Below, piece after piece: positions 53,319 to 64,000 of a DNA stretch of 64,000 nt (positions are counted from its first letter, which is position 1; the number at the start of each line of letters is the position of its first letter). The DNA is taken from contig NZ_VLLE01000007.1 in assembly GCF_007830055.1 (NCBI RefSeq), positions 124,001-188,000 of the forward strand. The letters run 5' to 3'. Both the position numbers and the translations under genes were made by a program. Origin of the DNA: Lacibacter cauensis. Lineage in GTDB: Bacteria; Bacteroidota; Bacteroidia; Chitinophagales; Chitinophagaceae. The notes beneath the pieces were generated by a model. It had not been told where the DNA came from. It did no database searches and saw only the letters and a list, made by a program, of their open reading frames with translations.

Positions 53319-53606
53319 TTAAAGGCTGTTAATTGTTAATAAGGTTTCATGGTTAATACGCTGTGCTTCTCTGCAGGCCTGCAACGGCAATGTTTTTATC
53401 GTTTGCTTGCAACTGTTTGTTTTTATTTTAATGTTCGACAAATGAACGGTAGTAAAGGAGAAAAATTCTTGCTGAATATGCTTTGCAAACAGCATTGCTT
53501 TTTGATCAATGCTGTTATTGCTGTGTGCAAAAGCAGTTGCGTTTTGACGGGTCTTCAGCACGAACCATGCTGCCAGTACCAGTATGACTAAAATTCCTTT
53601 TTTCAT
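53319..53606 (-). CDS. Small membrane-anchored protein, unknown
   Basis: 95 residues: one N-terminal transmembrane or signal helix (GILVILVLAAWFVL) and a polar tail with two Cys (NSCKQTIKTLPLQACREA). No family is recognised. Starts at ATG 53606 with no alternative. An isolated gene between a DUF2807 gene and ppc. Small but likely real because of its start and hairpin-terminated end. Confidence 0.45.
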   Translation of the reverse strand: MKKGILVILVLAAWFVLKTRQNATAFAHSNNSIDQKAMLFAKHIQQEFFSFTTVHLSNIKIKTNSCKQTIKTLPLQACREAQRINHETLLTINSL

Positions 53607-53745
53607 GTTGATGATGTTTACTGTTCAATTACAACTCAAAGATAATTTGCTGTTAAGCCTGCACAATAGCATAAATATGTGAAAAGCAAGAATGGTTGAA
53701 TGAAGTGTTGTATTTGCACAACGAATCGTTTTGCAGTAAATAAAA

Positions 53746-53790: not shown

Positions 53791-54267
53791 TTAACGGGGA
53801 GCATTTGTTTTGTTCCATTTTTGCACCATGATGTCAATGCCCTCATCGGCTTCAAATACAATACTGCCGATGTTGTTAATTTCAACTTTCGATGCGCCAC
53901 TGAGTTTCACCTGCAATTCTTTTGAATTTAAGTTGCCGTTACTGCGGATGTAAGATGAGCCTTTAACAATAAGGTTGTGCAGGTTTTGTACAGGTACAAA
54001 CACTGTAATTTTTTTGTGCATCGAACCTTTTTTGCTGAGGATACGCACTTTGCCGTTTTTTTCATCGAGTAAAACAGCGTTTGCAAGTTTTTCTTCACCT
54101 TCAATACGGATGCTGTTGTCGGTGCTTTCCGTTAACACCACATCAATATCGTGGCTTACTTCCAGAATGGTGAAGCTGCTTTTCAGCTTCACTTCCCGTG
54201 TTACTATTTCTGCCTGTGCTGCAGCGGCTGTAAACATGCCGATGAATAGAATGAATAAATACTTCAT
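53791..54267 (-). CDS. DUF2807 (GIN-domain) protein
   Basis: 158 residues from ATG 54267; the longer open frame to 54402 overlaps the divergent promoter region and is rejected. Signal ends GMFTAAAAQA. The mature part has the right-handed beta repeat pattern of the putative auto-transporter adhesin head domain: FTILEVSHDIDVVLTE, NLIVKGSSYIRSNG, LQVKLSGASKVEINNIG. Exported; role unknown. Divergent from the sensor kinase gene, sharing a 210-bp intergenic region with two palindromes. Confidence 0.85.
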   Translation of the reverse strand: MKYLFILFIGMFTAAAAQAEIVTREVKLKSSFTILEVSHDIDVVLTESTDNSIRIEGEEKLANAVLLDEKNGKVRILSKKGSMHKKITVFVPVQNLHNLIVKGSSYIRSNGNLNSKELQVKLSGASKVEINNIGSIVFEADEGIDIMVQKWNKTNAPR

Positions 54268-54397
54268 GATGATAAGGTTTGCGGCTTTCGCCTTTTGTTT
54301 GATCGGTTTAACGGTACAAAGATGCTTCGCCAGCAGGGGTTTTACAACCGCATAAACATGTTCAATAAACCAGTCAACGGCATGGAAGCAGTTATAC

Positions 54398-54457
54398 ACC
54401 ACATAAGTATGTGGTTTTACCGCAGGTATTCTTTTATGTAAAACACGTTGTTTACAT
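54398..54457 (+). promoter_or_regulatory. Regulatory box 1 upstream of the sensor kinase gene
   Basis: ACCACATAAGTATGTGGT (54398-54415) is a perfect 8-2-8 palindrome and the strictest match to the box shared with 58664, 59456, 60962 and 63701. A second dyad follows: ATGTAAA (54436-54442) with TTTACAT (54451-54457). A perfect -7 element TACATTTG lies at 54453-54460, 37 bp after the box. It could act on the kinase or on the divergent DUF2807 gene. Confidence 0.65.
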
Positions 54458-54477
54458 TTGATGCAGTAAGCATTTGC

Positions 54478-57400
54478 ATGAGAATACTTTTTACGCTTCT
54501 TTTTTTATGTACCACAGCTGTGCAACTTTCAGCGCAACGTTTTTCGTATGCCTTTAACCGCATCAGTACCGAAGATGGTTTGGGATTACAGTCGAATGTA
54601 ATTTTTAGTATTTACCAGGATAAGAAAGGTTTTATATGGATTGGTGGCAGTAACGGCATACAACGTTTCGATGGCGGTAAGTTTGTAACCTTTAATCCCA
54701 CAGGTACAAAAGGCGATCCGTTACCTACTGTTGCCGTTAACCAGATTTTACCGTACGACAGCAGCAGCATGTGGCTGGCCGTTTTTACAATGCGGCAGGT
54801 AGGTATTTTCAATCCTTCCACTTACACATATAAAAACGTTCCGATTAAAACTTCAAAGCCGCTTCCCGCACGGTCGGAGTTTCGTATGTGGCAGGATGGT
54901 TATGGTAATACGTACATTAACATAAAGCAATATGGTAAGATTGTTAAGTACGATAAGGCACTAAATGCTTTTACCGAAAATACAGTGCTGAACAACTTAC
55001 CTCCAAACTGGAAGCTTGGTTTTAATACGTTTCACGATACAATCAAAAAACGATACTGGACTGTTTGCGATAGCGGATTGCTGGTGTACGATGAATCTAC
55101 GAAACAAACATGGTACAGCGGTAACAACCCCGCCAATCTTCCATTGCTCAACAATAAGCAGGTCAACCATTATGTATCTGAAATTTATATTGATAAGCAA
55201 CGCAGGCATTGGGTGTTTAACTGGCCGGGCAGCCAGGCATACCATTGTTTTGACGAAAGCGGTAAGCCATTAAAAGATACTGCCGGTTTAAATGGTGTGA
55301 GCACATCGTACACAGAAGTGCGTAATTTTTTTGAAACAAAGCAAGGTGTTTTATGGGTATATGGGCTGGCGAATTTATATAGCCTCTCCAATGTAAATGA
55401 TCCCATTAACAAAGGCTTTCAGTTATACCGCACCCAGTACCTCGATAATTATGGCATACGTTACGAAGCCATCAATCAGTTATACGAAGACAGGGATGGT
55501 GTGTTGTGGATTGCCAGCGATCAAGGCTTGTATTACACCTCTAATTTTTCTACGGATATCGTAAACATGTATTTGTCTGCAATTCCCGGACAATACAGTG
55601 TTACCGATTTAACCGAACTGCAAAACGGCGATTACTGGATTAGTACATGGGGGAAAGGAGTAATTACATTGGGCCGCAATTTTATGCCCTATCCATCGCC
55701 GTTGTATAAACAAATGCAGCATGTTTCTGAAAACGACAAGTATAATTATAAACTTACATGGAGCATGTGCCAGCAAAAAGCCACCGGCAAAATATATATC
55801 GGTTGCCAGTTTGGTTTTCTGATGGTGCATGATGTAAAAACGCAGAAAACAGAGTACCTGCATCCACCGGAGTTTGATAACCGAACTATCCGTTATATTG
55901 TTGAAGATAAAAATAACATGCTGTGGTTTGGTACACAGGCTGGTCGTGTACTGAAGTACGATGGTAAAACATACCGTACTGTACTTGATCTTGGGGTTGG
56001 TGCTATCATCTATAAACTGTTAGTGGATAACGATGGCTGGATTTGGGTGGCAACACAGGACAAAGGTATTTATGCCATTAACGGTGTAACAGGAAAAATT
56101 GAACAGCATTACACATCTTCCTCAGCAACCAATAATCTCTTCACAAATTCCTGCGATGATCTTGAACAGTTGAACGACAGTATTATTTATGCAGCTACAT
56201 CTGCCTTAAACATCATCAACAAAAATGCAAAAACAGTTCAACAGGTAACTGTACAAAACGGGTTGCCCTCTAACTCAATTAAGCGCTTACGTTTAGACAG
56301 AAACGGGTACCTCTGGATTATTACACACAAAGGTCTTTCCCGTTACGATCATAAACGCAAAAGTTTTACCAGCTATGGCAGCAAGGATGGGATATTGATG
56401 GGCGAGCTGACCGACAAAGCAGATTTCATTTGCAGCGATGGTTACCTGATGTTTTCGGGTGTAAACAGTTTGTTGTTTTTTAAGCCCGAAACTTTCCGCA
56501 GAAGCGCTCCGCCTCCCGATGTAACCTTAACGGATTTTCTGTTGGGAAGCGAATACCAGTTGCTCGACTCGTTACAGCGTTTGCGTGAAGTACGGTTAAA
56601 TCCCGATCAGAATAATTTCACCATTAGCTTTGCTTCGCTCGATTTTAAGAACAGGGAAAAGTTTATTTACTATTACAAAATGGAAGGATTGAACGACGAT
56701 TGGATCCGTGCCGATCGGTTGTCTGTTCCGTTTACTGCGCTTGCCCCGGGCCGTTATGTATTTAAAGTAAAAGCCGAAAGTCTTGATGGATTAGTGTCAA
56801 AAAACATCAGCAGCTTACAGATATTTGTAAAGCCACCTTTCTGGCGCACCAAATGGTTTATTACGATGCTGCTGGTGATCATTGCTTTGATTGCGTACAG
56901 CATGCATCGCTTGCGCCTCAACCGCTATTTTGCTGTCGAGAAAATCCGTAACCGTGTAGCACGAGATCTGCACGATGATATGGGCAGCACCCTCAGCACC
57001 ATCAATATCCTTAGCTCAATGGCTAAGGCCAAGCTAAATACCGATACCCATAAAACGGCAGAATACATCAGCAAGATCAGTGACAACAGCCAGCGTATGA
57101 TGGAAGCAATGGATGATATAGTGTGGGCCATTAAACCGGCTAATGACAGTATGCAGAAAGTGGTGGCCCGTATGCGTGAGTTTGCTACAAGCGTGTTTGA
57201 AGCAAAAGATATAGAGCTCGATTTTAAAGCCGATGAAGACGTAAACGAAGCAAAGATTGATATGGAGGGCCGAAGGGATTTCTTTCTTATTTTTAAAGAG
57301 GCCGTAAACAATGCAGCAAAGTATGCACGTTGCTCTAAAGCAGAAGTGCATGTGTTTGTTGACAACAGGAAGCTTTTATTACGTGTTAAGGATAATGGTA

Positions 57401-57543
57401 TTGGTTTTGATATTAAGGATGCAGATGGCGGAAACGGGTTGGGTAATATGCAAAAGCGTACCGATGCATTAAAAGGAAAATTACAATTAACATCAATAGC
57501 AGGGGAGGGAACAGAAGTTGTGTTAACAGTACCGCTTAATTAA
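54478..57543 (+). CDS. Propeller-type sensor histidine kinase
   Basis: 1021 residues from ATG 54478. Signal peptide (LLFLCTTAVQLSAQ), then two beta-propellers of two-component-regulator-propeller repeats (GFIWIGGSNGIQRFDGG, VLWIASDQGLYYT, WIWVATQDKGIYAI, LWIITHKGLSRYD) and a Y_Y_Y domain (KFIYYYKMEGLNDDWI). One TM helix (FITMLLVIIALIAYSM) leads to a HisKA_3 domain with His832 in VARDLHDDMGSTLS and HATPase_c (EAVNNAAKYARCSK, DNGIGFD, GNGLGNMQKR). A periplasmic sensor pairing with NarL-type regulators. Unlike hybrid forms it has no receiver; the partner gene lies 1.2 kb downstream. Ligand unknown. Confidence 0.93.
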   Translation: MRILFTLLFLCTTAVQLSAQRFSYAFNRISTEDGLGLQSNVIFSIYQDKKGFIWIGGSNGIQRFDGGKFVTFNPTGTKGDPLPTVAVNQILPYDSSSMWLAVFTMRQVGIFNPSTYTYKNVPIKTSKPLPARSEFRMWQDGYGNTYINIKQYGKIVKYDKALNAFTENTVLNNLPPNWKLGFNTFHDTIKKRYWTVCDSGLLVYDESTKQTWYSGNNPANLPLLNNKQVNHYVSEIYIDKQRRHWVFNWPGSQAYHCFDESGKPLKDTAGLNGVSTSYTEVRNFFETKQGVLWVYGLANLYSLSNVNDPINKGFQLYRTQYLDNYGIRYEAINQLYEDRDGVLWIASDQGLYYTSNFSTDIVNMYLSAIPGQYSVTDLTELQNGDYWISTWGKGVITLGRNFMPYPSPLYKQMQHVSENDKYNYKLTWSMCQQKATGKIYIGCQFGFLMVHDVKTQKTEYLHPPEFDNRTIRYIVEDKNNMLWFGTQAGRVLKYDGKTYRTVLDLGVGAIIYKLLVDNDGWIWVATQDKGIYAINGVTGKIEQHYTSSSATNNLFTNSCDDLEQLNDSIIYAATSALNIINKNAKTVQQVTVQNGLPSNSIKRLRLDRNGYLWIITHKGLSRYDHKRKSFTSYGSKDGILMGELTDKADFICSDGYLMFSGVNSLLFFKPETFRRSAPPPDVTLTDFLLGSEYQLLDSLQRLREVRLNPDQNNFTISFASLDFKNREKFIYYYKMEGLNDDWIRADRLSVPFTALAPGRYVFKVKAESLDGLVSKNISSLQIFVKPPFWRTKWFITMLLVIIALIAYSMHRLRLNRYFAVEKIRNRVARDLHDDMGSTLSTINILSSMAKAKLNTDTHKTAEYISKISDNSQRMMEAMDDIVWAIKPANDSMQKVVARMREFATSVFEAKDIELDFKADEDVNEAKIDMEGRRDFFLIFKEAVNNAAKYARCSKAEVHVFVDNRKLLLRVKDNGIGFDIKDADGGNGLGNMQKRTDALKGKLQLTSIAGEGTEVVLTVPLN

Positions 57544-57548
57544 ACATC

Positions 57549-58658
57549 ATGACTCGTTCACTTAGTCAGAAGTTCCGCTTTTTTACATTCATCTGCATTG
57601 CATTGCTGGCGTATGTACATGGCTACAACCTGGAGAACGGATATCTTGCTCCCTTCAGCTCGGTTGAAGAACCTTTAACCATCACTACCTTTTTTGAATA
57701 TTTTGTTGCTAACGGATTGTTGCGTTTTCGTATTCCGATGTTATTTATTATTTCGGGTTACCTGTATGCAACTTACGATCATCGTCCGTACCTGCAACAG
57801 GTGAAGAACCGTTTCCGCACATTGCTTATTCCTTACGTAGTATGGAGTGGGTTAGGCTTGTTGTTTACATTCTTATTGCAGCAGTTTCCATACACTGCTA
57901 AAGTAGTTTACGAAGCAGGTATTGATCAGCTGGGCGATAACCGCCCCTATGCCGAAATAGGCTGGCGGGGTATTGTTGAACGCTGGTTACTGGCTCCTAT
58001 TTCGTACCAGCTATGGTTTATTCTTTCGCTGTTTATTTTTAACCTGCTGTACCCGGTTATCCGTTGGCTGGTAGTAAAGCTGCCGTATATCTGGCTGCCA
58101 TTTACCTTCATCCTGTTTTTTGTTTCCATCATCAATGTACCGTTTATTGATTTCAGGGGACTGTTTTTCTTTTCGCTCGGTGTGTGGGTGCAGAAGAGAA
58201 ATTTTTCGCTGGAAAAAGAACCGCAATGGTTTAGTCTTGGGTTGGCGATGATTGTATTCATAGGGTTTTCATTAATTAAAACATTTATGGCGTTTGAGCT
58301 GGAACCCGATACAAAGCAAACATGGACAATTTTAATCATCATGCACCAGGTTGCAGTAGTAGCCGGTATTATGAGTATGTGGTTTGGTGCCGACCGTGTA
58401 ATTAAATGGTTCCTCAGTAAACGCTGGTACCATGTAACAAGCAGTTATTCCTTTTTTATTTTCGGCATACATGTTCCGCTACTGCCGTATATGATGCAAT
58501 GGGCGGTAATGAACACTTCCATGTTTCCGAATTACCGTTTATTGTGTTACCTGTTGGTGCCGTTGGTTACCTTGAGTATTTGTACAGTTGTGGGTATGCT
58601 GTTGCATCGCTTTGTGCCAAAGCTTTATGGATTTTTGACAGGTGGCCGTGGCTTCTGA
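57549..58658 (+). CDS. Acyltransferase 3 family membrane protein
   Basis: 369 residues with about 10 TM helices. Start: FFTFICIALLAYVHGYN, with the conserved early His; then RIPMLFIISGYLYATYDH and RFRTLLIPYVVWSGLG, typical of the OafA/NRD-like acyltransferase 3 family that moves acetyl or succinyl groups onto envelope glycans. C-terminal FFIFGIHVPLLPYMMQW also fits. It begins 5 bp after the sensor kinase stop, so the two genes are coupled, and it separates kinase from regulator gene. Substrate unknown. Confidence 0.88.
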   Translation: MTRSLSQKFRFFTFICIALLAYVHGYNLENGYLAPFSSVEEPLTITTFFEYFVANGLLRFRIPMLFIISGYLYATYDHRPYLQQVKNRFRTLLIPYVVWSGLGLLFTFLLQQFPYTAKVVYEAGIDQLGDNRPYAEIGWRGIVERWLLAPISYQLWFILSLFIFNLLYPVIRWLVVKLPYIWLPFTFILFFVSIINVPFIDFRGLFFFSLGVWVQKRNFSLEKEPQWFSLGLAMIVFIGFSLIKTFMAFELEPDTKQTWTILIIMHQVAVVAGIMSMWFGADRVIKWFLSKRWYHVTSSYSFFIFGIHVPLLPYMMQWAVMNTSMFPNYRLLCYLLVPLVTLSICTVVGMLLHRFVPKLYGFLTGGRGF

Positions 58659-58663
58659 TAACT

Positions 58664-58710
58664 TACACATGTTTATGTGATGGATGGCAAAAGGCAGTGC
58701 TGTACTTTTG
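58664..58710 (+). promoter_or_regulatory. Regulatory box 2 and -7 element upstream of the response regulator
   Basis: TACACATGTTTATGTGAT (58664-58681), a 21-bp gap, then TACTTTTG (58703-58710), a perfect TAnnTTTG. The -33 position has no TTTG. The predicted start is about 11 nt before the ATG at 58728, putting the box centre near -43, the place expected for an activator. Confidence 0.7.
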
Positions 58711-58727
58711 TAAAAACACAAATCAAT

Positions 58728-59360
58728 ATGATTAAAGTAATGCTGTACGAAGATAATCCGCAGTTGCGTGAAGGATTAACGATGCTGATTGATGGCAGTG
58801 ACGGATTTAACGTATTGGCTTCTTACAAGAACTGTGATAATGTAACTGATGAAGTGGCCGCCTGGAATCCGGATGTGATATTGATGGATATTGATATGCC
58901 CGGAACCAACGGTATTGAAGGCTTGAAAAAAATACGTGCAGTCAACAGCAACGTAAAAATATTAATGCTCACTGTTTTTGATGATAATAAAAACGTATTT
59001 GATGCCATCCGTAACGGGGCTAATGGATATGTGTTGAAGAAAACACCGCCTGCGAAACTGCTGGAGTACATACAGGAAGCGGCCAGTGGAGGCGCACCCA
59101 TGACAGCATCGATTGCTACACAGGTATTGAAAATGTTTTCGCAGATAACACCTTCGCAAAACGAAGACTATAATTTAAGCGATCGTGAAAAGCAGGTGCT
59201 GCAATTACTGGTAGATGGCTACAGTTATAAAATGATTGCTTCCGAAATGTTTATCTCCATCGATACCGTACGCAGCCATATTAAAAAGATTTACGAGAAA
59301 CTGCATGTAAACTCCAAGAGTGAGGCAGTAGCAAAAGCATTTAAAGATAAATTGTTGTAA
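58728..59360 (+). CDS. NarL/FixJ-family response regulator
   Basis: 210 residues from ATG 58728, which follows the promoter; the longer frame from 58677 would cross the -7 element. The receiver domain has YEDN near the N-terminus, phospho-acceptor Asp54 in DVILMDIDMPG, and KKTPP with the conserved Lys. The C-terminal LuxR HTH is LSDREKQVLQLLVDGYSYKMIASEMFISIDTVRSHIKKIYEKLHV. Probable partner of the HisKA_3 kinase two genes upstream and the best candidate to bind the boxes in this region. A strong terminator follows. Confidence 0.94.
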   Translation: MIKVMLYEDNPQLREGLTMLIDGSDGFNVLASYKNCDNVTDEVAAWNPDVILMDIDMPGTNGIEGLKKIRAVNSNVKILMLTVFDDNKNVFDAIRNGANGYVLKKTPPAKLLEYIQEAASGGAPMTASIATQVLKMFSQITPSQNEDYNLSDREKQVLQLLVDGYSYKMIASEMFISIDTVRSHIKKIYEKLHVNSKSEAVAKAFKDKLL

Positions 59361-59380
59361 CAAACTTTGTTTGTTGAGGA

Positions 59381-59413
59381 ACAGCCCCGGCAATGCCGGG
59401 GCTGTTTTGTTTG
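59381..59413 (+). terminator. Intrinsic terminator after the response regulator
   Basis: AACAGCCCCGGC (59381-59392), loop AAT, GCCGGGGCTGTT (59396-59407): 12 perfect pairs, then TTGTTT. It isolates the two-component unit from downstream genes, so those need their own promoters. Confidence 0.85.
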
Positions 59414-59455
59414 GTACCCATGCGGTTCATCATTTCAGGCAATACAATCCGCAAT

Positions 59456-59503
59456 TCACACAGTTATGCGATTGATTTTTGTGTTGCTGCAATCTATCTT
59501 CAC
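59456..59503 (+). promoter_or_regulatory. Regulatory box 3 and -7-like element upstream of a small ORF and the Crp gene
   Basis: TTCACACAGTTATGCGAT (59456-59473) matches the shared box at 10 of the 12 core positions of CACATA-N2-TATGTG. After 22 bp comes TATCTTCA (59496-59503), which matches TAnnTTTG at four of six fixed positions. The start of RNA would be near 59509. Confidence 0.55.
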
Positions 59504-59535
59504 ATCAGTTACGTTAATACATTAAACCTTATTTT

Positions 59536-59634
59536 ATGAACGATCTGATGTGGGCACATATTTATGTTGTAGCAACAGGCAACAGCGTTCGTTACCTGCT
59601 CATCAACTGTACGGGTAATCCCGAAAATAACTGA
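59536..59634 (+). CDS. Possible 32-residue small protein
   Basis: An ATG ORF (MNDLMWAHIYVVATGNSVRY then LLINCTGNPENN) about 27 nt after the predicted start of the box 3 promoter. It is followed at once by a CTGAAGC/GCTTCAG hairpin (59632-59653), then by the Crp-like gene. Hydrophobic middle, no known family. It may be a microprotein or a leader of the regulator gene; coding status is uncertain. Confidence 0.3.
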   Translation: MNDLMWAHIYVVATGNSVRYLLINCTGNPENN

Positions 59635-59677
59635 AGCTTCTTTTCTGCTTCAGCTTCATTGCACTATCTTTAGTGTA

Positions 59678-60256
59678 ATGGAAATTACTTTGCTGCAACA
59701 GTTTGTACAACAGATTTCTCCTCTGCCACAGGAAGAACTGGAGCGCTTTACTGCCAACTGGCAACCGCTTACAGTAAAACGTAAAACCATTCTTACTGCA
59801 GCCGGCGAAACCGAACGTTACCTGTACTTTGTACTGGAAGGGGTGCAACGTGCTTTTTATATTGGCGATGAAAACAAAGAAGCCACGATTGTATTTACGT
59901 ACCCGCCTTCGTTTAGTGGTGTAGCCGATAGCTTTCTTACACAATCACCCTCACTTTATTTTTTAGAAACCATTACAGCCAGTCGTTTTTTGCGTTTGCC
60001 TTACGATGAAGTGGAAGCGATGCGCAAATCATCACCACTCATTCAACAGTTATTGTTTAAAGCAACTGCTTTTGCACTAAAAGGAGCTTTGCAACGCCAC
60101 ATCGAGTTGCAGTGTTTCAGCAACGAAGAAAAGTTTAAAACCTTACTCAAGCGGAGTCCGCATATCCTCAATCTTGTTCCGCATAAATACATTGCCTCTT
60201 ACCTGGGCATGGATGCCACTAATTTCAGTAAGTTGCTCGGCTCTGTAAAAATCTGA
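59678..60256 (+). CDS. Crp/Fnr-family transcriptional regulator
   Basis: 192 residues. The cyclic-nucleotide-binding type beta-roll is seen in LTVKRKTILTAAGETERYLYFVLEGVQRAFYI and ATIVFTYPPSFSGVADSF. The C-terminal HTH (HILNLVPHKYIASYLGMDATNFSKLLGSVKI) is compact, as in Bacteroidota Crp-like proteins. No Fe-S Cys cluster, so not a true FNR. Effector unknown. It lies behind box 3, so it may be a target of, or itself bind, those palindromes. A TCTTGGT/ACCAAGA hairpin follows its stop (60267-60284). Confidence 0.88.
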   Translation: MEITLLQQFVQQISPLPQEELERFTANWQPLTVKRKTILTAAGETERYLYFVLEGVQRAFYIGDENKEATIVFTYPPSFSGVADSFLTQSPSLYFLETITASRFLRLPYDEVEAMRKSSPLIQQLLFKATAFALKGALQRHIELQCFSNEEKFKTLLKRSPHILNLVPHKYIASYLGMDATNFSKLLGSVKI

Positions 60257-60328
60257 TGACCGTAAATCTTGGTTTTTACCAAGAATGCTTTCTGCTGTTC
60301 TGTTGAATTTTGTTGAAAATAAGAAACA

Positions 60329-60919
60329 ATGAAACAGATTAACAGCAACACCTTACTTGAACTTTTGCAAAACGATGTGCGGGAGCTGTTACTGCAATGC
60401 ACGCTGTTGCAAAACACCGATCCGGCTTTGCTTGTAAAGCAACCGGCCGAGGGAAGGTGGAGTGTAGCGCAGGTGCTGGAACACCTCAACATTTATGCAC
60501 GTCATTACATTCTTGCCATAGAGCAGAAATTACATTTAAATCAAACGGGTGCTAACGATGTATTTACACCGGGCTGGCTGGGGAATTATTTTACACAGTT
60601 GATGAAGCCCTTGGATAATAACAGTTTAAAGTCGAAGATGAAATCGCCTTCGAATGCGGTGCCATCTGCACAACCCGATGCACAGGCGATGCTGCAGGAG
60701 TTCATCAATCATCAACATCATTTGCTCAACCTGTTGCAGATTGCCCGTACCGCTAACCTCGATTACATCCGTGTTGCTACCACCCTCAGCAAATTAATTA
60801 CGTTAAAACTGGGCGACACCTTCCGGTTTTTTATTGCACATGAGCAGCGTCATTTTTTGCAGATAGAAAATACACTGAAGGCGTTGCAACCCTTCGTTGC
60901 TCACCTGCAGGTAAAATGA
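60329..60919 (+). CDS. DinB-family protein
   Basis: 196 residues forming the DinB/YfiT four-helix bundle: WSVAQVLEHLNIYARHYI with the first metal His, and FRFFIAHEQRHFLQIENTL with two further His. These three His normally bind a divalent metal. Family members act as thiol-dependent or unknown metal enzymes; the exact role is not readable. Its end overlaps an 11-bp inverted repeat (AAAATGATGTG at 60913, CACATCATTTT at 60934) that may end transcription. Confidence 0.88.
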   Translation: MKQINSNTLLELLQNDVRELLLQCTLLQNTDPALLVKQPAEGRWSVAQVLEHLNIYARHYILAIEQKLHLNQTGANDVFTPGWLGNYFTQLMKPLDNNSLKSKMKSPSNAVPSAQPDAQAMLQEFINHQHHLLNLLQIARTANLDYIRVATTLSKLITLKLGDTFRFFIAHEQRHFLQIENTLKALQPFVAHLQVK

Positions 60920-60961
60920 TGTGGTTGTTTTATCACATCATTTTATACCTGCGGCTGCATT

Positions 60962-61009
60962 TTCACATGATTGTGTGGTTGGGGCAGAACCGGAATTTCG
61001 GAAGCTTTG
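60962..61009 (+). promoter_or_regulatory. Regulatory box 4 and -7-like element upstream of a beta-barrel gene
   Basis: TTCACATGATTGTGTGGT (60962-60979), 22 bp, then AAGCTTTG (61002-61009), which matches TAnnTTTG at five of six fixed positions. The start of RNA would be about 14 nt before the ATG at 61029. Confidence 0.55.
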
Positions 61010-61028
61010 CAAATCAATAAATGTTACC

Positions 61029-61619
61029 ATGAAATTAAACCTTATCATCTTTATCATCAGCTTCTCTTTCGGTTGTACCCTTACCGGTGCAGCACAGCAA
61101 TCAAAGCCCCTGGGTTTCGATGTGGCAGCGGGTGTACAAACCTATTACGCACCTTTTTTAAAAGCCGATGTAGTTGGATTGCAGCCGGTAGTTATTGCAA
61201 GTGTACATCAACCGTTAAATATCAAAAACACAATTGCACTTTCTTTTCGTTTAGGCTATAATAAACATCCCAAACAAGGCGATGCGTTGTTTACACAAGT
61301 ACTTTTTCAATACAATCCTGTTATTGCCAAACGTATTGAGTTGGGTATTGGTACAGGTATCGGTTACCAGTTTTCATTCTATCCTTCTGCGCCTTTAAAG
61401 TGGAATGGAGCAGAATGGGTAGAGGGAAAAGCTGCTAAAGGTGTTTTACAATTACCGGTACTTGCAAGTGCAGGTTACCGATCGATTCATACCAAAGCAG
61501 GAAACTTTACACCTTACCTGGCTTATCAGTTAAATGTGTTGATGGGGTATACGCCCGATCTTTCGCCTTTGCCATCATCGTATTTTTTACTTGGTGTAAA
61601 GTACTCTTCAAAAAAATAA
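61029..61619 (+). CDS. Outer-membrane beta-barrel-like protein, unknown
   Basis: 196 residues from ATG 61029; the longer frame from 60921 would cross box 4. Signal: FIISFSFGCTLTGAAQQ. Strands with Gly/Tyr/Phe patterns: GFDVAAGVQTYYAPF, IALSFRLGYNKHPKQGD, IELGIGTGIGYQFSFYP, SSYFLLGVKYSSKK. It looks like a small outer-membrane or periplasmic barrel without a named family. First gene behind box 4, 30 bp before the serine hydrolase gene, so the two are probably one unit. Confidence 0.7.
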   Translation: MKLNLIIFIISFSFGCTLTGAAQQSKPLGFDVAAGVQTYYAPFLKADVVGLQPVVIASVHQPLNIKNTIALSFRLGYNKHPKQGDALFTQVLFQYNPVIAKRIELGIGTGIGYQFSFYPSAPLKWNGAEWVEGKAAKGVLQLPVLASAGYRSIHTKAGNFTPYLAYQLNVLMGYTPDLSPLPSSYFLLGVKYSSKK

Positions 61620-61649
61620 TTACTGCTAACCTTTATTATCATCCATTGT

Positions 61650-62852
61650 ATGAAACAGTTTCGTTTTATTTTACCCGTTTTGTTTTTAGTGATTGCACAA
61701 TCCTGCCGGAAAGATATTTACAGCACATCTACAGCAGTTATAAACGGACCTGCTTTGCCGGTTAACTTCGATCACCCCATGAAAGACAGTCTTGTTTTCC
61801 TGGTAAAAAAACATATCGACAAAGGTGTTACCGGTGCGCAGGTAATGGTAAAAAATGCCGATGGCTTATTTGTAGTAAATGGAGGTTATGCAAAGGTGGA
61901 AAGCAAAGTTCCTTTCACCGATCATATTACCGCATGGATCTACAGCATCTCTAAAACTTACCTGGTAGTAACCGCATTGCGCTTGAAGGAAAAAGGATTG
62001 TTGAACCTTGATGCAAAGATCAGCCAATACCTTTCTGCAGATGTCATCAGTCCGATAGCAAACGCAGATAAGATTACAGTTCGCCAGTTAATGAATCACA
62101 GCAGCGGTATGTTGAACCATACCGTTGAACCATCTTTTCAACTGTACCAGTTAAATAATCCGCTTACTGTACTGAGCCTCGAAAAAAAGATCAGCTTTAT
62201 TTATAACAAACCGGCTTTGTTTGAACCGGGTACCGATTTCTTTTACAGCAATAGTGGGTATACATTGCTGCAATGGGTAGTAGAAAAGGCAGCAGGTAAG
62301 CCGTATGCACAGGTTTTGCAGGAAGAAATTTTACAACCGCTTCAACTTACAAAAACATACTACGGTGTTAACGATGCGCAGATTGCAGCATTGGGTTTTC
62401 CCAACTATTACTTTGAACGTTACAATAACGGACAAATTGAAAATGTAACGCAGTGGCACAACACCATTGCAAAAGGATTGCAAGGCTATGGCGGTATTGC
62501 TGCCAATGGTTTGGATGTGATTCGTTTTATGGAAGCATTGATTAAAGGACAAATCGTCAGTTCTGCTTCATTGCAGGAAATGCGTACATGGGTACAAGGC
62601 AAAAACAGTACAGAGCCCGATTATGGTTTGGGTTTTGAATACTACGGCCGCTACAATAAAACGGAGCCTACCGTTACCTATGGCCACGAAGGCGATGGAC
62701 TTGGCGGAACCACGCAGGTAATTTATGTGCCGGCAAACGATACGTACCTGTTTATTACCATTAATGCAGGCCGGCAGTTATTTGGCGAGTATCTTTTTAA
62801 AACAAGCGATATGAAAATTGATTTATGTCGTTACGTAGCAACCTATCGTTAA
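61650..62852 (+). CDS. Beta-lactamase-family serine hydrolase (lipoprotein)
   Basis: 400 residues with lipobox FLVIAQSC (Cys about 19). Class C beta-lactamase/DD-peptidase fold: catalytic SxxK in WIYSISKTYLVVTALRL, YxN in FFYSNSGYTLLQW, and HEGDGLGG in place of the KTG box. Such proteins act as esterases or D-aminopeptidases, or in peptidoglycan trimming; true beta-lactamase activity is unlikely. Second gene behind box 4, followed after 17 bp by a lipoprotein gene. Confidence 0.9.
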   Translation: MKQFRFILPVLFLVIAQSCRKDIYSTSTAVINGPALPVNFDHPMKDSLVFLVKKHIDKGVTGAQVMVKNADGLFVVNGGYAKVESKVPFTDHITAWIYSISKTYLVVTALRLKEKGLLNLDAKISQYLSADVISPIANADKITVRQLMNHSSGMLNHTVEPSFQLYQLNNPLTVLSLEKKISFIYNKPALFEPGTDFFYSNSGYTLLQWVVEKAAGKPYAQVLQEEILQPLQLTKTYYGVNDAQIAALGFPNYYFERYNNGQIENVTQWHNTIAKGLQGYGGIAANGLDVIRFMEALIKGQIVSSASLQEMRTWVQGKNSTEPDYGLGFEYYGRYNKTEPTVTYGHEGDGLGGTTQVIYVPANDTYLFITINAGRQLFGEYLFKTSDMKIDLCRYVATYR

Positions 62853-62869
62853 TCAACTAAAATAAGTGT

Positions 62870-63646
62870 ATGCGAAACATCTATACCTTCCTGTTTATTG
62901 CTGCAGTAATCTTTACTTCCTGCAAGCCCGAAAAAAATCCGGTGCCGGTTGTTGAGCCGCCGGTAAAATATGTAACTAAAATTGCTACTGCCGAAAGCGA
63001 TTACCGGGAGTATTTCTATAACAGCGAAAAGCAATTGATCAAATACGATCTGCAGTTTGTTAATGGTGGAGGCGTAAGCAAAACCACAACAACGTATAGC
63101 TATGTTGATGGTACAATCAATACGGCAGGTTCTGAGGCTGCTTCTGTATTTTACGAAACAGAAGGAAAACGTGTGGTAAAAGTGCGCAGCTTTCGTCCTA
63201 TGGGCGGCGAAATTTCGGTAATCACTTTCAGCTACAATGCAAAGGGGCAGCTCAGTGAAGCTATTGAAAGAATTAATCAAAACGATCCCGGACTTCCTGT
63301 TGAAACAAAGCAGACGTATGAATACTACTCAGATGGTAATCTGAAAAGGATACTGTATCATTTGCGATACAATCTTGCAGACCTATTCACCTTATCAGGT
63401 TATGTTGTATTTGATCAGTACGATGCGGCTAAGAATCCGGATAAATTTTTCTCTTCACTTGTTTACTTGCCTGATGTGATTTTTCAAAAGAATAATCCTC
63501 GCCGTATTGTGCATTATTCACCAACAGGTGATGTTAACCAGCAAATCACATTTGAATATACGTACGATGCCGATGGTTACCCGGTAACCAAACGCATGTT
63601 CGACAGCCGAAGTACTGTAAGTATTCTTTTTAAATACAGTTATTGA
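62870..63646 (+). CDS. Lipoprotein with YD-type repeats, unknown
   Basis: 258 residues with lipobox AAVIFTSC (Cys about 18) and a short Pro-rich linker. Repeats of the SYNAKGQLSEAI, YEYYSDGNLKRI and FEYTYDADGYPVTKR type end the protein. The last motif resembles the YDSEGYPIELIRR end of the lipoprotein at 18923, so both share a fold family. Function unknown. It is 17 bp after the serine hydrolase gene and is closed by a terminator. Confidence 0.75.
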   Translation: MRNIYTFLFIAAVIFTSCKPEKNPVPVVEPPVKYVTKIATAESDYREYFYNSEKQLIKYDLQFVNGGGVSKTTTTYSYVDGTINTAGSEAASVFYETEGKRVVKVRSFRPMGGEISVITFSYNAKGQLSEAIERINQNDPGLPVETKQTYEYYSDGNLKRILYHLRYNLADLFTLSGYVVFDQYDAAKNPDKFFSSLVYLPDVIFQKNNPRRIVHYSPTGDVNQQITFEYTYDADGYPVTKRMFDSRSTVSILFKYSY

Positions 63647-63679
63647 TTGTATTGGTTTAAGTTGGGTCTTGGTTTCAGT

Positions 63680-63702
63680 GGGCGTCGAAGGACGCCCTTT
63701 TT
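63680..63702 (+). terminator. Intrinsic terminator after the lipoprotein gene
   Basis: GGGCGTC (63680-63686), loop GAAG, GACGCCC (63691-63697), then five T to 63702. It abuts box 5. Confidence 0.85.
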
Positions 63703-63748
63703 CACATACTTATGTGATAGGTGTAAACATTATCCGGACTTACTTTTA
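63701..63748 (+). promoter_or_regulatory. Regulatory box 5 and -7-like element upstream of a serine hydrolase gene
   Basis: TTCACATACTTATGTGAT (63701-63718), 22 bp, then TACTTTTA (63741-63748), which matches TAnnTTTG at five of six fixed positions. The RNA would start at or very close to the ATG at 63753, so the message may be leaderless or the real -7 lies elsewhere. Confidence 0.6.
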
Positions 63749-63752
63749 AACC

Positions 63753-64000
63753 ATGAAACCTGTCATCTTTTTACTCGCATTCAGCGTACAGCAATTGTAT
63801 GCCCAAATTACTACGCAGCAGCAATTACAAATCGATAGCCTGTTGCAGCAGTTCACAACTACCAAACAGTTTTCGGGCACAGTGCTCGTTGCAAAAAACA
63901 ACAATATTCTTTACAGCAAAGCGATTGGTCTTGCCAGCAAAGAATCGGCCGTACCGAATAAGCTTGAAACCAATTTCAACATTGCATCGATGGGTAAAAC
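63753..64000 (+). CDS. Beta-lactamase-family serine hydrolase, 3' partial
   Basis: 82 residues visible before the window ends. Signal peptide VIFLLAFSVQQLYAQ, then FSGTVLVAKNNNILYSKAIG and FNIASMGK, the start of the SxxK catalytic motif region seen in class C-type serine hydrolases. A paralogue of the gene at 61650 and preceded by regulatory box 5. Confidence 0.85.
   Translation, partial: MKPVIFLLAFSVQQLYAQITTQQQLQIDSLLQQFTTTKQFSGTVLVAKNNNILYSKAIGLASKESAVPNKLETNFNIASMGK

Follow-up and report, generated by a model that had tools for sequence, protein, structure and literature searches.

Inverted repeats at a kinase-regulator locus of Lacibacter cauensis are probable operators of a NarL-type two-component regulon found across Bacteroidota

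Towards its end, a 64,000-nucleotide (nt) stretch of the 4.95-Mb Lacibacter cauensis genome carries short palindromes in front of several genes, among them those of a sensor kinase and a response regulator, and the question raised by this locus is which protein reads these boxes and what is controlled through them. The stretch, C6:124001-188000 (contig NZ_VLLE01000007.1), is referred to as the window, and positions are those of the window unless a contig is named. An initial annotation of this DNA had described five boxes fitting CACATA-N2-TATGTG with 0-2 mismatches. All five are real, with cores at 54400, 58666, 59457, 60964 and 63703 that have 0, 1, 2, 2 and 0 mismatches, respectively. They are very probably operators of the NarL/FixJ-type response regulator encoded at 58728..59360 (+), which is paired with the propeller-type HisKA_3 sensor kinase encoded at 54481..57543 (+). 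Such a reading is supported at the level of sequence by the putative operators themselves, their spacing, their conservation with the regulator and a match between recognition helix and operator base.

Both genes had been named in the initial annotation, the regulator behind box 2 and its likely kinase behind box 1, and Pfam searches bear this out. The regulator has receiver (Response_reg, 7.4e-24) and GerE (1.2e-18) domains, and its nearest solved structures are NarL (1a04, 4.5e-30) and, second, VraR. The kinase has Reg_prop, Y_Y_Y, HisKA_3 (1.1e-10) and HATPase_c (4.7e-11) domains, and 80 homologous loci were compared with it.

The signal of the boxes lies in their position and not in their number, because counts are near chance while perfect sites cluster. 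The window holds 31 matches with up to three mismatches against 39.6 expected, so there is no excess, and the whole genome has 21 places with at most one mismatch, hardly above the 18 found for the reversed pattern. Perfect CACATA-N2-TATGTG sites occur four times in the genome, and three of them lie inside 13 kb (C6:178400, 187703 and 191301), for which the chance is about 3e-5 with any place allowed. The scan that had been called for, asking whether boxes are scattered at random over the genome, was run with a 56-position sequence profile (R1) that was derived from 39 sites in other organisms and whose E-values are rough. Its best matches concentrate at this stretch; eight of the ten best fall inside C6:177636-191347 (13.7 kb; binomial 2e-19), and the remaining two are at C1:984764 and C2:1027423. 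The 39 training rows were hand-chosen from 70 candidates, with near-identical sites thinned out; none came from a locus named Lacibacter, and loci named only Chitinophagaceae were unchecked for genus. Besides the L. cauensis genome, R1 was used to scan 119 genomes of the order and 195 of the family.

Base frequencies and the alignment of the 39 sites give the motif TCACATA-N2-TATGTGA, a 7-2-7 inverted repeat of the NarL-family shape, as had been proposed. Beyond the five boxes, R1 detected minus-strand sites at 54363, before a DUF2807 gene, and at 53685, before a gene for a small exported protein. It also found sites just past the window end at C6:191180 and 191297, plus a weaker one at 189753; the first two of these precede a lipoprotein-like gene without a Pfam match. 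The kinase box scored low (E 0.13, partial match) because its spacing differs.

Distant relatives throughout the phylum Bacteroidota show the same predicted arrangement. The best 80 of 100 loci, chosen for carrying a kinase homologue, span Chitinophagia, Flavobacteriia (Arenibacter), Cytophagia (Algoriphagus), Bacteroidia (Maribellus) and Sphingobacteriia (Pedobacter), and the closest named locus, from Lacibacter luteus TTM-7, is 90% identical in its kinase and 98% in its regulator. A regulator homologue, 56-98% identical, is present on 70 of the 80. Allowing up to two mismatches, 60 of these 70 loci have a box no more than 120 nt from the regulator start. For the kinase start the limit was 220 nt, and 55 of the 76 loci that were long enough have a box there; by comparison, two such matches occur in the first 53.6 kb of the window. 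With at most one mismatch, the 80 loci gave 312 strand-counts, against 8 for a reversed-letter control.

Which protein reads the box is indicated by two observations that point to the regulator, as had been proposed for the NarL-type protein, since the box co-occurs with it across genomes and the operator base follows its recognition helix. Among the 195 family genomes, with cut-offs of E 1e-85 for the regulator and 1e-3 for R1, 20 have the regulator, 26 an R1 match and 19 both; R1 matches were thus present in 19/20 genomes with the regulator and in 7/175 without it (Fisher 1.2e-19). In the 119 order genomes, the three with a regulator of at least 77% identity are those with the three best R1 matches (E 4.2e-6 or better), and the best R1 matches of seven others range from 1.4e-3 to 8e-3. 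The recognition helix could be read in 90 distinct regulators and is of the form TVR-HI-KK in 80; 70 of these KK regulators have a clear box, and core position 2 is A in all 70. Nine regulators have R followed by N or S at this place, and the seven with a clear box all have G in core position 2. The single RG regulator (L249) lies inside the R clade on the tree and has a box with A at this position, hinting that the second helix residue sets the operator base. A search for the RN-type regulator of L098 in 395 genomes of the phylum found none at E 1e-80, which says little because this cut-off also missed the window's own regulator.

Several points weigh against this interpretation. Recovery of the five boxes by R1 is partly circular because the training sites were picked using the originally described box; this applies less to the newly found sites and to the ranking across the genome. 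At up to two mismatches, no box was found in the searched stretch for 10/70 regulator and 21/76 kinase loci, and the box-less kinases include most Arenibacter, most of which have boxes further upstream. One family genome (G163) has the regulator and no R1 match at 1e-3. Of the seven genomes with a match only, one (G304) encodes a regulator that is 61% identical, the regulators of four reach at most 51% and two have none at 1e-45; as some genomes with boxes hold only a distant regulator or none, other regulators may use boxes of this kind. KK and R regulators form sister clades (support 0.94 and 1.00), so that the match between helix and operator reflects mainly one old split, and no clear box was seen for 10/80 KK and 2/4 RN regulators. 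The -7 matches at C3:556031 and C2:574951 are weak, and activation is read from position only. Separately, R1 sites were seen beside NarL-type regulators of only 39-49% identity (L184/L238 in G245 and L192 in G247), and boxes of this type may be read by a broader set of regulators.

The distance between box and promoter was described as fixed, and it is; counted from the end of the core, boxes 2-5 are separated from the start of their -7 octamers by 23, 24, 24 and 24 nt. The values of 21, 22, 22 and 22 given earlier keep this pattern and differ by a constant 2, presumably owing to how the box end was defined. These promoters were also said to lack a -33 TTTG; a literal TTTG is indeed absent from all four, but in two of them (ATTG at 59457 and GTTG at 60964) TTG directly follows the box, at the -33 position. 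Box 1 had been left outside the common spacing, in agreement with its TTTG 43 nt after the core. Relatives have the same two layouts. Of 60 regulator promoters, 55 have TTTR starting 27 or 28 nt past the core, 54 of them with TA four bases before it; of the 48 kinase promoters that are long enough, 41 have TTTR at a distance of 42-44 nt, all with TA. The three bases after the box are TTG in 38/60 regulator promoters versus 0/55 kinase promoters, where TTT is found in 46/55. The kinase promoter is a second spacing class, which corrects the earlier description. As an observation apart, the kinase homologues of L033, L035, L041, L052 and L077 have no regulator homologue that could be found on the locus, and their boxes end in ATGCT with 28-nt spacing, unlike those of most other kinases.

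Mapped promoters of Flavobacterium johnsoniae are numbered T-12, A-11 and T-8 to G-5 (PMC6847099). In this numbering the core of the common layout extends from -50 to -37 (centre -43.5) with its TTG at -35 to -33, and the kinase box is centred near -58. A -33 TTTG motif is described as a promoter motif that was not seen in F. johnsoniae (PMC7366714), and judged by position the TTG of the common layout occupies its place. A box next to -33 fits the activator beside -35 that had been suggested. In the proposed mechanism, the kinase would sense an extracytoplasmic signal and phosphorylate the regulator, given their linkage and shared operators, and a regulator dimer would bind TCACATA-N2-TATGTGA. 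At the regulator and target promoters the site would lie near -43.5, abutting the TTG at -33 where present, and from beside -33 the bound protein would draw in the housekeeping polymerase of Bacteroidota. The site at the kinase promoter would lie near -58, and the circuit would feed back on its own kinase and regulator genes.

It is unlikely that the regulator binds but represses, or that it has a dual role in which targets are activated and the kinase repressed. Such a role would suit the kinase operator, which differs from the regulator operators in spacing and flank, but the box is clear of the -7 in both spacing classes, and -43.5 is the position of activating NarL sites (PMC4549865). The imperfect -7 octamers at 59495 and 61002 likewise suggest a need for help.

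The locus is laid out as follows. On the minus strand, a candidate operator with a -7 of the 28-nt class (53636..53685; R1 E 0.025 genome-wide, 1e-4 in L016) precedes the gene for a 95-amino-acid (aa) protein with a hydrophobic N-terminus (53319..53606), and similar box-driven open reading frames (ORFs) occur in L019, L222 and L233. A second candidate operator on this strand, GAACATGTTTATGCGGTTG, with the -7 CATCTTTG (54315..54363; R1 E 0.0023 genome-wide), precedes the gene of a DUF2807 (head GIN domain) protein (53791..54267; PF10988, 2.9e-15). Box 1 (54400..54413, no strand assigned) is a perfect palindrome and the candidate kinase operator of the 42-44-nt class, followed by the kinase -7 element TACATTTG at 54453..54460 (+). 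All further features are on the plus strand. An Acyl_transf_3 acyltransferase gene (57549..58658; 2.4e-21) with a homologue on 27/80 loci separates kinase and regulator. Box 2 (58666..58679), with the -7 element TACTTTTG (58703..58710), is the candidate regulator operator. Box 3 (59457..59470), which is followed by TTG at the -33 position and is also present in L. luteus (L019), has the -7-like TATCTTCA (59495..59502) at 28-nt spacing. Behind it lies a 32-aa ORF, MNDLMWAHIYVV... (59536..59634), which has no obvious signal peptide and has similar counterparts behind a box in two further genomes of the genus (L222 and L233). A gene for a Crp-type protein (59678..60256; cNMP_binding, 5e-8) is possibly on the same transcript.

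Box 4 (60964..60977) and the -7-like AAGCTTTG (61002..61009, 28-nt spacing) stand before an exported-looking protein (61029..61619) that has no Pfam match, 'barrel' being a label of the initial annotation only. It is followed by a serine hydrolase (61650..62852; 5.2e-51) and a lipoprotein-like protein (62870..63646) with a weak DUF4595 match (6.8e-5; 23.3 bits, below the Pfam cut-off of 34.2). Box 5 (63703..63716), a perfect palindrome with the -7 element TACTTTTA (63741..63748) at 28-nt spacing, precedes a second hydrolase with C-terminal TPR (63753..64000), which extends 1.2 kb beyond the window end. The two serine hydrolases named earlier as targets both belong to the Beta-lactamase family.

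Targets were sought further afield by applying a two-block matrix to 2.12 Mb of fetched loci, which overlap and were selected for matches, those beyond the 80 having been chosen for profile or regulator matches. This gave 444 sites versus 2 in reversed letters, a count inflated by the choice of loci, by overlaps (the 80 kinase loci account for 276/444) and by inclusion of the 39 training sites. First genes at these sites were grouped by single-linkage BLAST, and Pfam was run on one or a few members of most larger groups. Over the 80 kinase loci, the clusters comprise the regulator (67 loci), DUF2807 family (29), which is the second largest target cluster, kinase (28), RHS/DUF4595-like lipoproteins (12), an extracytoplasmic function (ECF) sigma factor (12), cytochrome-c-like proteins (10) and two S41 peptidase clusters (7 and 10). 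The Beta-lactamase family cluster is found at one locus in the 80 and at 7 over all loci; a 695-aa group, which was left out of the Pfam runs, has 11 members, and many small exported-looking ORFs also lie behind boxes. In L. cauensis itself, a further DUF2807 gene (Pfam 2.9e-31) lies behind the remote site C4:101143. The gene behind C1:984764 is lipoprotein-like, and its homologue in L228, a second genome of the genus, is also boxed. By a crude rule devised for this analysis, a signal-like N-terminus is present in 137/237 first ORFs at strong sites versus 208/1907 at random places, where ORFs are mostly not genes. Predicted regulon members are largely exported: DUF2807 proteins, lipoproteins, S41 peptidases, serine hydrolases and small secreted proteins. 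The circuit would control mainly exported proteins, many encoded beside the system, and from the sensor type and the targets an envelope or surface cue seems most likely as the signal.

Small ORFs recur near these boxes. At six loci (L037, L040, L043, L045, L048 and L049), box-driven ORFs of 57-63 aa on the minus strand near the kinase share an N-terminus like MKGKYITTSLLLAVLAGGK with a variable remainder, reminiscent of a leader and variable core. Small secreted-looking ORFs (~55-85 aa) stand behind a strong box in three sets of loci (L050, L051, L088 and L175; L037 and L043; L030, L034, L036, L039, L045, L090, L094 and L095); they lie mostly within ~2 kb after the regulator and differ in sequence between genera. 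In L022, tandem boxes 33 bp apart (1095 and 1128) precede a gene of the DUF2807 cluster. The 12 loci with an ECF-type sigma factor behind a box (L073, L075, L078, L080, L082, L089-L092, L094, L095 and L097) are Pedobacter-type and Cyclobacteriaceae-type, suggesting a regulatory cascade there.

That the circuit serves peptide signalling or peptide competition, with the small exported protein or proteins as a signal or weapon read by the propeller kinase, is rather improbable. The idea arises because boxed exported proteins near the regulator (~50-95 residues) vary by genus while the regulator is ~80% identical, because kinase and regulator are often separated by a membrane acyltransferase, and because the kinase combines a very large outside sensor with self-feedback.

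It is very improbable that the Crp-type protein 59678, which had been named as a candidate binder, or another Crp/FNR protein reads the box. The box can also be read as TCACA-N6-TGTGA, and the Crp gene lies behind box 3; Crp/FNR sites consist of TGTGA-like half-sites in the order opposite to that of the box, however, and the operator base tracks the helix of the regulator. A Crp homologue is present on only 9/80 loci, against a box with the regulator on 60/70, and this binder was rejected. There is next to no chance that the boxes are non-regulatory terminators, repeats or mobile hairpins, and these readings were rejected; the boxes are indeed short palindromes, with boxes 2-5 located between genes, but their distance to the -7 is fixed, the same two genes lie downstream across the phylum and reversed-letter controls are rare.

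With the NarL-type regulator as the probable binder, the locus would define a regulon in Bacteroidota with a defined operator, two promoter layouts and a helix-to-base rule. A full-text literature search, which covered titles and the starts of abstracts with subscription papers mostly outside it, found no description of this regulon, and to our knowledge few response-regulator sites have been mapped in Bacteroidota. With the operator model, the regulon could be traced in other genomes, and uncharacterised exported proteins, those with DUF2807 included, are grouped as putatively co-regulated.

In comparison with known systems, the box resembles the operators of Crp/FNR regulons in being a palindrome of TGTGA-like half-sites, and differs in their reversed order and in that the Crp gene is not conserved with it. 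The locus also resembles the envelope-stress systems LiaSR/VraSR of Firmicutes, which have a NarL-family regulator (VraR being the second-best structure) and kinases of the HisKA_3 type. DUF2807 is grouped with the Toastrack domain of lia systems (PMC11237479). Unlike LiaSR/VraSR, the kinase here has a large Reg_prop/Y_Y_Y sensor. Reg_prop and Y_Y_Y sensor modules are the layout of the hybrid two-component systems (HTCS) of Bacteroides, which the kinase shares. An HTCS is one protein (PMC11253607), whereas 54481 and 58728 are separate genes and Pfam lists no receiver domain for the kinase. Escherichia coli NarL/NarP, whose NarL serves nitrate respiration and has 7-2-7 sites at -40 to -49 (napF) and -38 to -47 (yeaR) (PMC4549865), is like this system in its receiver-GerE regulator, its 7-2-7 repeat and a site at about -42 to -45 when activated. 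The Lacibacter system is set apart from NarL/NarP by another half-site sequence, another kinase sensor and the Bacteroidota-type -7, and by boxes before both partner genes and largely exported predicted targets.

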